Part shown: piece after piece, positions 57,661 to 64,000 of the stretch
Layout of the letters: the number at the start of each line of letters is the position of its first letter
Position numbering within the stretch: position 1 is the first letter of the stretch
NCBI RefSeq assembly: GCF_034044635.1
Contig: NZ_JAXCLX010000002.1
Span: 310,001 to 374,000 of the forward strand
DNA: 64,000 nucleotides
DNA from: Dongia rigui
Lineage (GTDB): Bacteria; Pseudomonadota; Alphaproteobacteria; Dongiales; Dongiaceae
Direction of reading: 5' to 3'
Notes under the pieces: model-generated
Seen by the model: only the letters and a program-made list of their open reading frames with translations
What the model was told of the DNA's origin: nothing
Database searches by the model: none
Translations under genes and position numbers: made by a program

Positions 57661-57770
57661 CATTCTTAAAGTGAAAGATGTGGTGGAATAAAGCCGGAAC
57701 ATCATTGACGTTCGGCCGCCGAAAGTGGTTAACTGAAGCCCTGATTTTTGACCACGAAGGAATGACCGAA

Positions 57771-60149
57771 ATGGCGCAGGTAGCCGCGATTTCCCAACAG
57801 ATATGGGACATGAAATATCGGCTGAAGGCGCTGGACGGCGTGCCCGTGGATAAGACCATCGAGGATAGCTGGCGCCGTGTCGCCGATGCCCTGGCCGAGG
57901 CCGAGGCGCCGGAGAGCCGCGCCAAATGGGCGGGCGAATTCGCCGAAGCCTTGGCCGATTTCAAGTTCCTGCCCGCTGGCCGGATCCTGGCCGGGGCGGG
58001 GGCCAAGCGCACCGTCACCCTCTTCAACTGCTTCGTCATGGGAACGATTCCGGACGATATGGGCGGGATCTTCGCCCATCTCCGGGAAGCCGCGCTCACC
58101 ATGCAGCAGGGCGGCGGCATCGGTTACGACTTCTCGACCCTGCGGCCCAAGGGCGCGCCGGTCAAAGGCGTGGGGGCGGACGCCTCCGGCCCGCTCACCT
58201 TCATGGATGTCTGGGACGCGATGTGCCGGACCATCATGTCGGCCGGTCACCGGCGCGGTGCCATGATGGCAACTTTGCGCTGCGATCACCCTGATATTGA
58301 AGCATTTATCGACGCCAAGCAGACCGCGGGGCGCCTGCGCATGTTCAACCTCTCGGTCCTCGTTTCCGATGCCTTCATGGCGGCGGTGAAGGCCGATGAG
58401 CCGTGGGAGTTGAAGTTCGGCGGCACCACCTACCGCGTCGTTCAGGCGCGCGAGCTTTGGGACCGGATCATGCGGGCGACCTACGCCTATGCCGAGCCGG
58501 GCGTCATCTTCATCGACCGCATCAATCAGAAGAACAACCTGCACTATTGTGAAACGATCAGTGCCACCAACCCCTGCGGCGAGCAGCCCCTGCCGCCCTA
58601 TGGCGCCTGCCTGCTGGGTTCGGTCAATCTGACGACGTTGGTCGCCAAGCCTTTCACGGCGGAGGCGACGCTCGATCTTGCAGCACTTGACCGATTGGTC
58701 AGGATGTCGGTGCGGATGATGGACAACACCATCGACGTCTCGAACTTCCCGCTGGAGGCACAAAAGGCCGAAGCCAAGGCCAAGCGCCGCATCGGCCTCG
58801 GCGTCACCGGCCTCGCCGACGCGCTCATCATGTGCGAGGCGCGCTATGGCGGACCCAAGGCGATCAAGCTCACCGACGAATGGCTCCGCGCCATCTCCCG
58901 CTCGGCCTATCTCGCCTCGACCGAACTCGCGGCCGAGAAGGGGGCCTTCCCGCTCTTCGACAAGCACCAGTTCCTCGCCTCCGAAACGGTGAAGACCCTG
59001 GATGCGGATGTGCAGGCGGCCATCGCCAAGCATGGCATCCGCAACGCGCTCCTCACCTCCATCGCCCCCACCGGCACGATCTCGCTCTTTGCCGATAACG
59101 TCTCCTCCGGGTTGGAACCGGTCTTCAGTTTCAAATACACCCGCCATGTCCTGATGCCGGACGGCACCCGCCAGGCAGAAGAAGTGACGGATTATGCGTA
59201 TCGGCTGTTCCGCCGCCTGAAAGGCGAGGATGCGCCGCTGCCGGATTACTTCGTCGACGCCCAGTCCCTCTCGCCCCACGACCATGTCGTGATGCAGGCG
59301 ACGGTGCAGAAGCATATCGACAGCTCGATCTCCAAGACCATCAACTGCCCGGTCGATCTGTCGTTCGAGGAATTCAAGAGCGTCTATACCGAAGCCTATG
59401 ACATGGGCTGCAAGGGCTGCACCACCTACCGGCCCAATGACGTGACGGGTTCCGTCCTCGAGGTGAAGAAGGAAACGCCCAAGCCCCAGGCCGAACTGCC
59501 GCTGATGACCCAGAAGGTGACGCCGCAATCCGAGGCCGTGCGCCTCGATGCGCCGAAGCCCCAGGATGTCTATGAGGCGGGCGGCGTCGTCTACATGACC
59601 CAGCCGCTCGACCGGCCGGAGGCGCTACCCGGTGCCACCTATAAGGTGCGCTGGCCGGAAAGCGACCACGCCATCTACATCACCATCAACGACGTCATCC
59701 AGGACGGGCGCCGCCGCCCCTTCGAGGTCTTCATCAATTCGAAGAACATGGAGCATTACGCCTGGACGGTGGGCTTGACCCGCATGATTTCGGCCGTCTT
59801 CCGCCGTGGCGGCGATATCTCCTTCGTGGTGGAGGAACTGAAGGCCGTGTTCGACCCGCGCGGCGGCTCCTGGGTCAGCGGCCGCTATGTGCCCTCACTG
59901 CTGGCGGCCATCGGCGAAGTGATCGAGCGCCACCTCATCGCCATCGGCTTCATGCCCGACCCGCGCCAGGACCGCGAGGATCTCGAGCACATGGTGGCGC
60001 GCAAGGTCGCCAACCTCGCCGACGGCCAGGGCAACGGCGATGCGGGTGGCCGCAAGCTCGCCCATTGCCCCAAATGCAACTCCCCCTCGCTCATCCGCCA
60101 GGAAGGCTGCGACATGTGCACCTCCTGCGGCTACAGCAAGTGCGGGTGA
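57771..60149 (+). CDS. nrdJ: Vitamin B12-dependent (class II) ribonucleotide reductase
   Basis: NrdJ reduces ribonucleotides to deoxyribonucleotides using a radical made from adenosylcobalamin. The 792-residue protein has the class II core: RTVTLFNCFVMG, QGGGIGYDFSTLRP, the radical/active-site NPCGEQPLPPYGACLLGSVN, ALLTSIAPTGTISLFA and CKGCTTYRPN. A TSCPD-type domain follows (TYKVRWPESDHAIYITINDV), and the tail is cysteine-rich (CPKCNSPSLIRQEGC, then CTSCGYSKC), providing the reducing pair. ATG 57771 has GAAGGA nine bases upstream; ATG 57762 and the frame start at 57678 are alternatives. The last 33 codons are duplicated at 61111-61209. It depends on the B12 pathway encoded at 0-6.5 kb. Confidence 0.95.
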   Translation: MAQVAAISQQIWDMKYRLKALDGVPVDKTIEDSWRRVADALAEAEAPESRAKWAGEFAEALADFKFLPAGRILAGAGAKRTVTLFNCFVMGTIPDDMGGIFAHLREAALTMQQGGGIGYDFSTLRPKGAPVKGVGADASGPLTFMDVWDAMCRTIMSAGHRRGAMMATLRCDHPDIEAFIDAKQTAGRLRMFNLSVLVSDAFMAAVKADEPWELKFGGTTYRVVQARELWDRIMRATYAYAEPGVIFIDRINQKNNLHYCETISATNPCGEQPLPPYGACLLGSVNLTTLVAKPFTAEATLDLAALDRLVRMSVRMMDNTIDVSNFPLEAQKAEAKAKRRIGLGVTGLADALIMCEARYGGPKAIKLTDEWLRAISRSAYLASTELAAEKGAFPLFDKHQFLASETVKTLDADVQAAIAKHGIRNALLTSIAPTGTISLFADNVSSGLEPVFSFKYTRHVLMPDGTRQAEEVTDYAYRLFRRLKGEDAPLPDYFVDAQSLSPHDHVVMQATVQKHIDSSISKTINCPVDLSFEEFKSVYTEAYDMGCKGCTTYRPNDVTGSVLEVKKETPKPQAELPLMTQKVTPQSEAVRLDAPKPQDVYEAGGVVYMTQPLDRPEALPGATYKVRWPESDHAIYITINDVIQDGRRRPFEVFINSKNMEHYAWTVGLTRMISAVFRRGGDISFVVEELKAVFDPRGGSWVSGRYVPSLLAAIGEVIERHLIAIGFMPDPRQDREDLEHMVARKVANLADGQGNGDAGGRKLAHCPKCNSPSLIRQEGCDMCTSCGYSKCG

Positions 60150-60161
60150 GGGGAATGGCCC
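60051..60161. repeat. Direct repeat, left copy (true 3' end of nrdJ)
   Basis: This 111-base segment, covering the last 33 codons of nrdJ and its stop, recurs at 61111-61221 with two mismatches (60080 C to T, silent; 60145 G to A, changing the last residue from G to E). The offset is exactly 1060 bases. Similarity falls to about 6 of 10 just left of the boundary and disappears to the right. The start codon and ribosome site of the next gene lie in its right-hand end. Confidence 0.93.
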
Positions 60162-61003
60162 TGCGCGTTCTGAAGTTCTGGTGCGCCTCGATCAGAATGA
60201 TCGTGCGGGTTGCTCTTCTGCCTGTTGCCGCATTCGCCCTTTCCACTCAGGCATTCGCCGACAAAGGCGTTACGGAGCTTTCCAATACGTTGGTCCAGCA
60301 CTTTGTTCAAAGCTACTTTCGCGTGGATCCGCGAACTGCGGCGACATCTGACTATCCGATCGTAAAATGGCCGCATGAGATATCGATCAGTCTGCTGCAT
60401 CCAGAACTTCTGCCGAAGGGCGCCGACATATACGCCAAAGCGGTCGTAGCCGCACTTCGAAGCTCCGGCTTCAATATCGAATTGAATGCCGCCGAGTCCG
60501 ATCAAGCCAACGTTAGCATTATCGTGTTCGATGCGACCGATGGCTTCTCCCAATCGGATCTGGCGATTCTGACGCGCCGTATGTCGGGCAATACCGCCGG
60601 CTTGAAGTACTTTGTAAGTCAGTTCGACTCGCGATCGACATGCTTGATGGGCGGCGACTTTAGTAAGCCCTGGCAACTGAAATCATCGTTCATCGGAATC
60701 AATGCCAATATGCCTGGAGCGGTCATCAAGCATTGCTTGGTTAGCATGATCGCCGGGATCGTTGGCTTCCAGGGAAAAGTTGATAAAGGTGTGGTACGCC
60801 ACTCTCTGTTTTCCAGTGACACCTCCTCCATTGACGTATCGGCTTGGGACCGGCTGGCTTTTCAAATGCTGGCTGATCCGCGTCTGCAGGCAGGTATGCG
60901 CTACAATGGGTCGACGTTGTCGATCCTGCACGAGATAGCGGAGACTTTGATTGCAACGTGGCCTGATCCTGAAGGGTTGGAAGAACAGATGCAGGCTCAT
61001 TGA
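60155..61003 (+). CDS. Secreted DUF2927-like protein between nrdJ-end repeats
   Basis: A 282-residue protein with a signal sequence (VRVALLPVAAFALSTQAFA). The C-terminal part (HCLVSMIAGIVGFQG, SLFSSDTSSIDVSAWDRLAF, DPRLQAGM) resembles DUF2927, a family of putative lipoproteins of unknown function. The usual E/Q residues after HCL are not evident. ATG 60155 is six bases after the nrdJ stop and lies inside the repeat, with GAGGGG as ribosome site; ATG 60197, nearer the signal peptide, is possible. Base composition is lower in GC than nrdJ, consistent with a separate origin. Confidence 0.75.
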   Translation: MALRVLKFWCASIRMIVRVALLPVAAFALSTQAFADKGVTELSNTLVQHFVQSYFRVDPRTAATSDYPIVKWPHEISISLLHPELLPKGADIYAKAVVAALRSSGFNIELNAAESDQANVSIIVFDATDGFSQSDLAILTRRMSGNTAGLKYFVSQFDSRSTCLMGGDFSKPWQLKSSFIGINANMPGAVIKHCLVSMIAGIVGFQGKVDKGVVRHSLFSSDTSSIDVSAWDRLAFQMLADPRLQAGMRYNGSTLSILHEIAETLIATWPDPEGLEEQMQAH

Positions 61004-61110
61004 AGGTCTCGAGCTGGGTCAGGCCATTGGCCCCGGTAGCAACTGCTTGAGCACGATGACGGCTGGGGTTTTCCTCTTGTGCGCTGGGATTTGGCCCGCG
61101 TGTCGGCGGG

Positions 61111-61221
61111 CGCAAGCTCGCCCATTGCCCCAAATGCAATTCCCCCTCGCTCATCCGCCAGGAAGGCTGCGACATGTGCACCTCCTGCGGCTACAGCAAG
61201 TGCGAGTGAGGGGAATGGCCC
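61111..61221 (+). pseudogene. Duplicated fragment of the nrdJ 3' end
   Basis: A second copy of the last 33 codons of nrdJ (RKLAHCPKCNSPSLIRQ through CTSCGYSKCE) ending in TGA at 61207-61209, 109 of 111 bases identical to 60051-60161. It has no start codon or upstream coding sequence, so it is a remnant. It marks the right edge of a 1060-base insertion or duplication that carries the DUF2927-like gene. Confidence 0.9.
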
Positions 61222-61227
61222 CCGACC

Positions 61228-61304
61228 GTCATGCCCGGACTTGATCCGGGCATCCACTCTATCGACTGCCCCCGTGGATCCCCGGGTCTTCGCCCGGGGA
61301 TGAC
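61228..61304. repeat. GTCAT...ATGAC intergenic repeat (type A copy 3)
   Basis: A 77-base element starting GTCATGCCCGGAC and ending GCCCGGGGATGAC, with CATCCACT and GTGGATCCCCGGG inside. Very close to the copy at 42850-42924 and related to that at 21475-21568. It begins 7 bases after the nrdJ-end fragment. Confidence 0.85.
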
Positions 61305-61393
61305 GCGTTCGGTTTAAGGAGCAAACTCGGCATCGGCTAGGGCTGCGGAATATCGGCGCGTGCCGATGGCCACTATGACGATCTACGTTCCTC

Positions 61394-61480
61394 GTCATCC
61401 CCGCGCAGGCGGGGATCCACGAGTTGCTTTCTTCAGGTCGCCCGCAAACTCGTGGATGGTCGGCCTGTGCCGAGCATGAC
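61394..61480. repeat. GTCAT...ATGAC intergenic repeat (type B copy 2)
   Basis: An 87-base element starting GTCATCCCCGCGC and ending CGAGCATGAC. It has the ATCCACGAGTT and AACTCGTGGAT inverted pair also found at 9280-9369, but in the opposite orientation relative to the two hairpins. It lies 90 bases after the type A copy. Confidence 0.82.
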
Positions 61481-61551: not shown

Positions 61552-62337
61552 CTAGCTGCTGGCACTGGTGTAATGCCGCACGGCGCGGCGCCAGATCGTC
61601 ATCGACAGCAGCAGGCTCGCAGCGGCAACCAGCCAGCTGAGGCCGATCGTCGTCCAGCCGACCTTGGCGACGGCGGCGGCGGCCGGGACATTGGTGATGA
61701 AGGCGACCGGCAGCACGAAGGTGAAGAAGAGGCGCAATCCCCTCGGATAGACCGTTGCCGGATAGCGCGCGACGCCCATCAGCGCATAGAGAATCATCTG
61801 CGCGTTATTGATGCGCACGAACCAGAACGCCATCACGGTCACCGTCGCCCAAAGCGCATAGAGGATGGTGATGCCGGCGGTAAGGCCGAGGAGCGCCATC
61901 GCCACATGCGTTGGCGTAAGGGTGCCGGCGCCAGACATGCCGCCCAGAATCAGCGCGAGGCCGATGCCGAAATTGGGGAGCTGCCAGAAGTTCCAGGCGC
62001 GGAACGACATGTTGACCTGCAGGTTGACCGGCTTCAGCAGCATGTAGTCCATGTTGCCGAGTTCGATAAATTCCGCGACCTTGCGCAGGCTGGGGCGGAT
62101 GACCAGGCCCACCATGGCGTCGGCACAGGTGAAGACGCCGAGGAGGACGATGATCGCATGGGTGTCCCAGCCGCCGATCGTGCCGCCGTGCCGCAGCAAA
62201 GCGAGCAGCACGGCTGCGCCGGCACCGAGGCTCAGCAGGGTATTGATCATATTGATCAGGAACCCCGTGCGGTATTCGAGATCCAACTGAATGGAGTTGG
62301 CGAGGAACCGGGCGAGGAGTCGGCGGGTCCGCGTCAT
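61552..62337 (-). CDS. ABC-2 type transporter permease subunit (DUF990/ABC2 family)
   Basis: A 261-residue membrane protein with six hydrophobic segments (INTLLSLGAGAAVLLALL, AMALLGLTAGITILYAL, FTFVLPVAFITNVPAAAAV and others). The GNMDYMLLKPVNLQVNMSFR stretch is characteristic of the bacterial ABC-2 permease group paired with a second permease and an ATPase. ATG 62337 overlaps the stop of the upstream permease by 4 bases. Last gene of the exporter operon. Substrate unknown. Confidence 0.85.
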   Translation of the reverse strand: MTRTRRLLARFLANSIQLDLEYRTGFLINMINTLLSLGAGAAVLLALLRHGGTIGGWDTHAIIVLLGVFTCADAMVGLVIRPSLRKVAEFIELGNMDYMLLKPVNLQVNMSFRAWNFWQLPNFGIGLALILGGMSGAGTLTPTHVAMALLGLTAGITILYALWATVTVMAFWFVRINNAQMILYALMGVARYPATVYPRGLRLFFTFVLPVAFITNVPAAAAVAKVGWTTIGLSWLVAAASLLLSMTIWRRAVRHYTSASS

Positions 62338-63131
62338 GCGCCGGCCCCGGTGAAACGGCGCAGGCCCCGCCGCCACAGCGCCCAGGCGCAAGCGCCCGAG
62401 AGGCTTGCCCAGGCGACTTGCCCGCCCAGCAGCCAATAGAGGTCGGTGCCCCGATGCAAGCCGACCAGGATTTCGGCCGGCGCGCCGAACATGTAGCGCC
62501 AGGGAACCCAGGCGATGACGGCCTGGGCCGATGGGGGAAACAGGGCCAGCGGCACCGTGAAGCCGGTGAGGAGATAGAGGGCGGCGGTGTAGAAATCCTC
62601 GAACGCCCAGGATTGGTCGGTCCAGAAGGCGGTGAGGCCGATTGCCATCTCGGTATGGAAGTGAACCAGCACGCCGAGCAGCAGCGACAGCATGAAGAGC
62701 GGCAGCCGGTTCGCCTCGATGACGGGCCAGGCATCGAAGAGCCACAGGCCCAGCGGCACCACCCCGAGGATGATGGGGAGGCGGATCGCATTGTCGGCAA
62801 GATGATGACCGACCAGATGCCAATAAAGCGGCGCCGGGCGCAGCAGATGCTGCGAGAGCTGGCCCAGCCGTACCTGGCGGTCCATCTCGCGGATGAGCCA
62901 AATCGGGCTCAGCTGGCGCGTGGCAAAGATGACGAAGAAATAGGCGGCGAACCAGGTGCCGCTGACATCGCCGATCTGCCCGGCATCGGCCAGGGACCGC
63001 CAGGCGAACATGACGATGATCGGCACGGCGCCCGCCAGCATGTAAAGCAGGAATTCGGCGCGGTACTGGACATGGCTGGCATAGGAGGTGGCCAACGATC
63101 GGCCGATGATATGGAGTGGCCGGCTTCTCAT
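62334..63131 (-). CDS. ABC-2 type transporter permease subunit
   Basis: A 265-residue membrane protein with six hydrophobic segments, related in layout to its partner. Signature parts are QYRAEFLLYMLAGAVPIIVMF near the N-terminus, GQLSQHLLRPAPLYWHLV and FALFPPSAQAVIAWVPWRYMF-like text at the C-terminal third (LALFPPSAQAVIAWVPW). It overlaps the ATPase gene by 4 bases and the next permease by 4 bases, so the three subunits are translated together. The two unequal permeases suggest a heterodimeric exporter. Confidence 0.86.
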   Translation of the reverse strand: MRSRPLHIIGRSLATSYASHVQYRAEFLLYMLAGAVPIIVMFAWRSLADAGQIGDVSGTWFAAYFFVIFATRQLSPIWLIREMDRQVRLGQLSQHLLRPAPLYWHLVGHHLADNAIRLPIILGVVPLGLWLFDAWPVIEANRLPLFMLSLLLGVLVHFHTEMAIGLTAFWTDQSWAFEDFYTAALYLLTGFTVPLALFPPSAQAVIAWVPWRYMFGAPAEILVGLHRGTDLYWLLGGQVAWASLSGACAWALWRRGLRRFTGAGA

Positions 63132-64000
63132 CGTGCCGCCCCGGCCGGCGGGTTGCCGGCAAAGAGGGAACTGACGACATCCTCGATGGGGATGTCTTCG
63201 ATGGCGATGTCCTCGACCGGGAATTCGGCAAGGATCGCGCCGGCGATCTGCGGCACCGAACCGCGTTCGACGCGCAGGGTCGCCGCGTGGCCGTCGAGCC
63301 GCTCGACGATGCCGAAGCGTTCGAGGGCGGTGCGGCCGACAAGGGTCCCGAAATGCAGCTTCAGGATCTTGCGGTCGGCAACGCGCTGGGTGAGCTCGCG
63401 CAAGGTGCCGTCGAAGGCGAGCTCGCCGTTGTCAATGACGATGACGCGCGAGACGAGTGCCGCGATGTCGCCCATGTAATGCGAGGTGAGGACCACGGTC
63501 GCGTTATGGAGGCGGTTATAATCGCGGATGAAGTCGCGCACATTCTGCTGCATGGTGATGTCGAGGCCGATGGTCGGCTCGTCGAGGAACAATATCTTGG
63601 GCTGGTGCAGCAATGCCGCTGCCAGTTCGCATTTCATCCGCTCGCCCAGCGACAGGGTGCGCATGGGCTTGTCGATGACCCGCTGCAACGCCAGCAACTC
63701 GACCAATTCACCGAGGCGCTTCCGATAGTTGGCGTCGGGAATGTCGTAATAGGCCTGGTTGACGAGGAAGGAATCGCTGGCCGGCAAATCCCACAGCAAT
63801 TGCTGCTTCTGCCCCATGACCAGCGTGATGCTGTGCAGGAACGCGGCGTCGCGCCGATGCGGCGTGTGGCCGTCCACCGTGACCGTCCCCGATGTCGGGT
63901 GCAGCAGGCCGGACATCATCTTCAGCGTCGTGGTCTTGCCGGCGCCGTTCGGTCCCAGGAAGCCGACGATCTCGCCGGTTGGAATGTCGAAGCTGATGTC
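63128..64000 (-). CDS. ABC exporter ATP-binding protein (cut by window end)
   Basis: The nucleotide-binding subunit of the exporter; only the part up to base 64000 is visible and the start lies beyond. The Walker A motif GPNGAGKTTT is present at about 63930-63960, followed by the Q-loop region, the signature TLSLGERMKCELAAAL, Walker B ILFLDEPTIGLD and the switch histidine in VLTSHYMGD. The C-terminal 80 residues form an accessory domain. It overlaps the first permease by 4 bases. The first in-frame ATG, at 63919, is internal because it falls after Walker A. Confidence 0.9.
   Translation of the reverse strand, partial: DISFDIPTGEIVGFLGPNGAGKTTTLKMMSGLLHPTSGTVTVDGHTPHRRDAAFLHSITLVMGQKQQLLWDLPASDSFLVNQAYYDIPDANYRKRLGELVELLALQRVIDKPMRTLSLGERMKCELAAALLHQPKILFLDEPTIGLDITMQQNVRDFIRDYNRLHNATVVLTSHYMGDIAALVSRVIVIDNGELAFDGTLRELTQRVADRKILKLHFGTLVGRTALERFGIVERLDGHAATLRVERGSVPQIAGAILAEFPVEDIAIEDIPIEDVVSSLFAGNPPAGAAR

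Follow-up and report, generated by a model that had tools for sequence, protein, structure and literature searches.

Comparison with related genomes shows that, in Dongia rigui, a single foreign-looking gene lies between two copies of the 3′ end of nrdJ, the gene for B12-dependent ribonucleotide reductase, that relatives have one copy of this end, and that the right-hand copy in D. rigui is the one in decay. The locus was found in a 64,000-nucleotide stretch of contig NZ_JAXCLX010000002.1 (positions 310,001 to 374,000 of the forward strand), hereafter the window; coordinates without a prefix are window positions, and G000 denotes the genome from which the window was taken. The comparisons covered 17 genomes of the order and 7 of the genus (G000 to G006), with 61 genomes in a wider comparison of the nrdJ tail and the inserted gene. 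We take the event to be an insertion with long target duplication; such events have been described before, but their traces are seldom this clear. We regard it as moderately probable that the gene arrived by a single, one-sided and homology-guided crossover of a religated donor fragment carrying both the gene and its neighbour’s end.

The gene upstream of the insert was identified as nrdJ through TIGR02504 (NrdJ_Z, E 3.1e-173) and contains the Pfam domains PF02867, PF00317 and PF12637. Its end forms part of a direct repeat of 117 nt with 97% identity, whose copies stand 1060 bases apart and differ at 4 positions over the full length. The initial annotation had described this repeat as 111 bases with two mismatches, holding the last 33 codons of nrdJ, and a recount established that it is real. 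The 111 bases (60051-60161 and 61111-61221) comprise these 33 codons, stop codon included (60051-60149), and 12 further bases, and the two mismatches are 60080 C / 61140 T and 60145 G / 61205 A, the latter changing the last codon of the right copy from Gly to Glu. At both sites the left-copy base is present in 6 of 6 other tails from the genus (the left and right tails of G001 and the tails of G003 to G006); among five tails from other genera, T occurs at the first site in one (G012) and A at the second in none. Because the six other genus tails keep the left-copy bases, the left copy is the working gene end and the right copy a recent remnant. Judged by these base states, the right copy has been free to drift, but for a short time only.

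Between the copies, a single lower-GC gene resembling DUF2927 had been proposed, and this description held. The insert contains one substantial open reading frame (ORF) on the nrdJ strand, which matches Pfam DUF2927 (PF11150) at 33.6 bits against a cut-off of 26.2. Insert GC is 54.4% vs 63.6% for nrdJ, a value reached or undercut by 2.7% of the 943-nt windows placed over 831 kb of contig C2, and GC at third codon positions is 0.62 vs 0.84 for nrdJ. The claim that the start codon and ribosome site of this gene lie inside the left repeat was likewise borne out, as ATG 60155 and the GAGGGG preceding it fall there, with an in-frame ATG at 60197 as an alternative start candidate. By eye, the N-terminus of the protein looks like a signal peptide. 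Among the 61 genomes, the protein was matched in its own genome and by one weak hit (G023, E 5.1e-4); no relative was confirmed in genome_contigs (46 pattern stretches) and none was found in plasmids or phages, nor was there a match among PDB sequences. A literature search found no paper on DUF2927. By its composition and its scarcity in these genomes, the inserted gene looks foreign.

Relatives provide the empty sites that an insertion predicts, in agreement with the earlier proposal of an integration that left nrdJ with its full end. Searches with the last 417 bases of nrdJ matched 34 of the 61 genomes, with a second tail in G000 and G001 only; all other additional matches were either fragments of nrdJ itself or brief chance similarities. 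This count does not support the idea that all relatives share the same two copies through an old duplication. The nrdJ end is available in 6 of the 7 genus genomes, G002 having been left out of the tail comparison as its contig ends within nrdJ. Single tails are present in G003, G004 and G006, which lack the insert, and the ABC-exporter genes found downstream of the locus in G000 begin, in G003, 155 nt behind nrdJ (71.5% DNA match over 2,471 nt), which is the empty site that the initial annotation had suggested looking for. As the exporter genes directly follow the single G003 tail, the right copy in G000 is joined to the native downstream side. More generally, the genus has a conserved block behind nrdJ, in G000 from about 6 kb on, preceded by a variable interval, which measures 5.7 kb in G001 and 3.8 kb in G003 as against about 0.9 kb in G004 and only 0.4 kb in G006. 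In G005, a different short gene overlaps the nrdJ stop, and it has one distant relative among the 17 genomes (G003, 26%). Palindromic intergenic repeats (form gtcatgcccggacttgatccgggcatcc) were also observed in the window at 61234-61470; they occur behind nrdJ in G003, G004 and G006, and further copies are present at other places in these genomes.

The two junctions of the insert can be told apart. On the left, the arrangement is operon-like, with the nrdJ stop (60147-60149) and ATG 60155 separated by 5 bases; on the right, the nrdJ copy is abruptly truncated. Under the favoured reading, DNA of a relative would have entered the cell as a fragment with an nrdJ 3′ end and the DUF2927 gene natively behind it, and this fragment would have been trimmed inside nrdJ and its ends joined to form a circle. 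One crossover in the common nrdJ tail would then have put the circle into the chromosome, leaving the native nrdJ body, an intact tail, the donor gene, a truncated tail and the native downstream DNA in that order. Such an insertion is predicted to be harmless, since nrdJ would remain whole, and the newcomer, placed behind it as in an operon, could be co-expressed. The variability of the slot behind nrdJ in the genus suggests that such arrivals may be tolerable repeatedly.

The sister species G001 carries its own second nrdJ tail, 1,502 nt downstream of the first. The orphan gene between these tails has 211 open codons and no Pfam match and was found, among the 17 genomes, in its own genome only. 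The second tail of G001 is 99% identical to the G000 tail over 99 nt, and the two G001 tails are 93.7% identical to each other over 95 nt; between the G001 right tail and the G000 left tail, 3 of 99 bases differ, two of them at the boundary. Flanks were compared as well: the second tail of G001 runs into sequence with a 174-nt match of 90% to the native flank of G004; the first runs into a different flank, of which about 20 bases resemble, by eye, the flank of the left copy in G000. By this comparison, the tail copies in G001 are apparently of mixed descent, the outcome expected when a resident tail recombines with an incoming one through a single crossover. In G000, the left and right tails are too similar for donor and native halves to be told apart in the same way.

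A further comparison concerns the tail itself. Between G000 and G004, 1 of 99 tail bases differs, compared with 17.5% over much of nrdJ, a figure that is partly inflated by badly aligned columns in the G004 background; elsewhere in the compared parts of nrdJ, divergence is 13-18%, and the tail statistics treat sites as independent. The tails of G000 and G001, and those of G001 and G003, are as divergent as the rest of nrdJ, so the tail is not simply slow-evolving. This pattern suggests an exchange of the nrdJ end between lineages.

To judge the nrdJ repeat against chance, 1,913,000 bases of G000 (831 kb of contig C2 and 1,082 kb of C1) were scanned for repeats of at least 40 nt and at least 85% identity, no more than 10 kb apart. 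By this measure the nrdJ repeat goes beyond chance: the scan yielded 11 repeat pairs, among which, besides nrdJ, only the pair at C2:413372/414889 has the same layout. This second locus falls outside the window, some 43 kb away from nrdJ. There, an orphan gene of about 486 codons stands between two copies of the 5′ end (first 52 nt) of a gene for an EamA transporter (PF00892), the repeats (C2:413372-413423 and 414889-414940) being 52 nt long with 2 mismatches (96%). The orphan occurs only in G000 among the 17 genomes and has no Pfam match above the cut-off; G001 has one copy of the repeat at this locus with both neighbours present. The orphan stop overlaps the EamA start in an operon-like manner, and on the far side the EamA 5′ end is abruptly truncated, making the layout a mirror image of the nrdJ locus, which is operon-like on the nrdJ side and truncated on the far side. 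As an operon-like and a truncated junction are thus paired twice, and transposition or the filling of a break would place the gene randomly, the donor-fragment route is favoured. The second locus in G000, together with the independent nrdJ case in G001, also argues for homology-anchored insertion-duplication over a dedicated element.

The remaining pairs of the scan comprised three in a paralogous gene array, five in repetitive ORFs of C1 (long frames that look RTX-type by eye) and one that is short and low-complexity-like. The three repeats at C2:214-218 kb were considered as further cases and rejected, being paralogous genes with alike 3′ ends. Four or more paralogous genes lie in that region (C2:214588-218487), almost the same at their 3′ ends but divergent in their 5′ parts, and an ORF that looks unrelated separates two of them; by eye the group resembles an immunity-gene array of a polymorphic toxin, and the two proteins tried had no Pfam match.

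Several observations weigh against the donor-fragment reading. A donor form, in which DUF2927 follows nrdJ and the second tail is lacking, was not found in the 61 genomes or in genome_contigs, the order being represented by 17 genomes. GC of the EamA-locus insert is ordinary, with 20% of windows as low. In G001, the 33 codons before the tail are far from those of G000 (20 of 99 bases, P 1.6e-4 with sites treated as independent), and since these penultimate codons are unusually far, the left end of G001 rather than the right could be the foreign one. The orphan gene of G001 is also framed by 89-nt direct repeats of 98.9% identity (G001 C1:186559-186647 and 187493-187581), which by eye appear palindromic, and further downstream there is a gene of the Y1_Tnp type (IS200-like, RAYT-like); given these repeats and the nearby Y1_Tnp gene, a REP/RAYT-type history is possible at G001 and may differ from that of G000. 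In addition, the 5′ boundaries of the right copies in G000 and G001 are no more than about 3 nt apart, a closeness that may point to a specific site.

The strongest of the alternatives is a target duplication without donor homology, in which a staggered break or replication template switch at the nrdJ end would have captured a stray gene fragment while about 110 bases were copied again. It fits the tails of G000 themselves equally well, as the two hardly differ and agree with the local sequence, the insert has no terminal inverted repeats (the longest terminal match is 7 nt), and repeats of variable length between 52 and 117 nt resemble the long target duplications of about 100 bp reported in PMC3874152. 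Against it, the operon-like arrangement of stop and start at both loci would have to be a coincidence that happened twice, and the mixed descent of the G001 tails would go unexplained. We therefore consider it a tentative second choice, with perhaps a minor share of the probability. An insertion sequence or transposon would be expected to have terminal inverted repeats and a short target duplication, and the locus, with no terminal match above 7 nt and a duplication of 111-117 nt, shows neither.

A site-specific element at the nrdJ 3′ end, with its recombinase lost or acting in trans and the left and right copies as attL and attR, is doubtful. Integrative elements in gene 3′ ends restore the gene end on one side and leave a displaced remnant on the other, and the nrdJ locus, with its restored end and displaced remnant, shares this layout of gene-end-targeting islands; second tails also occur in two sister species, where their 5′ boundaries almost coincide although the cargo differs. 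The locus differs from such elements in that no recombinase was found, no cargo is common and a single gene is present. The insert holds one ORF of relevance and no integrase, in agreement with the initial annotation; the latter’s further suggestion of a decayed element, read as one of integrase type, was not supported and is rejected on the searches that follow. No tyrosine integrase (PF00589) was found near nrdJ in the genus, the nearest in G000 being about 74 kb away, in a search by family that did not extend to serine recombinases or transposases. Searches for the nrdJ tail in 72,556 plasmid and 50,697 phage records returned nothing, nor did IMG/VR yield a match to it as an exact degenerate pattern, and a literature search on nrdJ as a prophage integration site found nothing related. 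Second tails are also rare, being present in 2 of the 34 relatives, in 2 of 12 class-sample genomes (G000 and G001) and in 1 of 10 genome_contigs stretches matching the tail (the record of G001); the class-wide negative is weak, because the stricter tail pattern matched just 12 of 385 genomes. Finally, the EamA locus has another target, a 5′ end.

A tandem duplication dating back to the ancestor that G000 and G001 share, with its interior replaced later, would account for the presence of second tails with similar boundaries in both sister species, but an idle copy should drift, yet the right copies have stayed near the working tails (G001 right against G000 left, as above) while the nrdJ bodies differ by 8.3%, and different flanks follow the right copies in the two species, making this explanation very improbable. 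That the second copy is an assembly artefact, as the initial annotation had allowed and as a draft of 10 contigs might invite, is scarcely credible, since the copies differ at 4 of 117 sites, the insert is unique and an independently assembled relative has an analogous structure.

Insertion with long target duplication was reportedly described by Nobusato, Uchiyama, Ohashi and Kobayashi in Gene in 2000. In PMC1643837 and PMC3874152, it is a named pattern, first noted in Helicobacter pylori and known mainly for restriction-modification genes of that species. The nrdJ locus shares with it a gene that is present in one genome and missing at the same place in a relative, and long target repeats of variable length, on the order of 100 bp, with no known element linked; it differs in its cargo, a secreted-looking DUF2927 orphan that is not a restriction-modification gene (such cargo being common in the pattern but no requirement) and had no PADLOC match, and in having one operon-like junction. 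For the single crossover, the closest parallel comes from conjugation in Escherichia coli, where, according to PMC3240628, 56 of 60 Lac- clones gave the PCR product of a duplication; in the 14 clones that were sequenced, the duplicated part measured 109 to 950 bp, and the outcome was attributed to trimmed and religated molecules taken in through a single crossover. There too, part of a homologous locus is doubled around an insert with one side abruptly truncated; that work used laboratory plasmids, whereas the present case is inferred from sequence and no donor was found. Homology-facilitated illegitimate recombination, as presented in PMC3240628 and PMC2884548, similarly anchors an unrelated gene through homology at one end, but its classical events replace or delete resident DNA, whereas at nrdJ the resident end survives as an additional copy.

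The entry of single orphan genes without mobile elements is usually invisible, and here a scar, empty sites, a sister case and a second locus are available together. As the two junctions are distinguishable, the proposed route, with homology at the neighbour’s end and illegitimate joining at the other, becomes testable. A more speculative and on balance unlikely extension is that some gene ends in Dongia, and that of nrdJ in particular, serve as address tags common to several species: fragments tagged with a neighbour’s end would carry single orphan genes between species and recombine at the tag without a recombinase of their own, each leaving a spare tail. The shared boundaries with different cargo in G000 and G001, the tail identity between G000 and G004 and the mirrored EamA locus could then be snapshots of one integrase-free route, and, if true, such tags would be a means of gene turnover between species.

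Table 1. Features of the nrdJ locus in the window, with strand and basis of assignment.
Feature	Position	Strand	Basis and remarks
nrdJ, B12-dependent ribonucleotide reductase	ORF 57678..60149	+	TIGR02504, Pfam, relatives; suggested start 57771
Left repeat copy: functional nrdJ 3′ end + 12 bases	60045..60161	+	Repeat search, base states
Inserted orphan gene, DUF2927 family, 282 aa	60155..61003	+	PF11150, low GC; alternative start 60197
Insert between repeat copies, 943 bases	60162..61104	+	Repeat search, GC; not in G003, G004, G006
Right repeat copy: truncated nrdJ 3′ end in decay; abrupt 5′ boundary = non-operon-like junction	61105..61221	+	Base states
ABC exporter genes (two ABC-2 permeases, one ATPase)	61552..64000	-	PF06182 twice, PF00005; directly behind nrdJ in G003

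The start of nrdJ given in Table 1 is suggested because the reading that begins MAQVAAIS is conserved in G001 and G003. At the same gene in G005, the frame before the conserved part appears intein-like by eye, with homing-endonuclease-type text ending in VHNC before GEQPLPPYGACLLGS.

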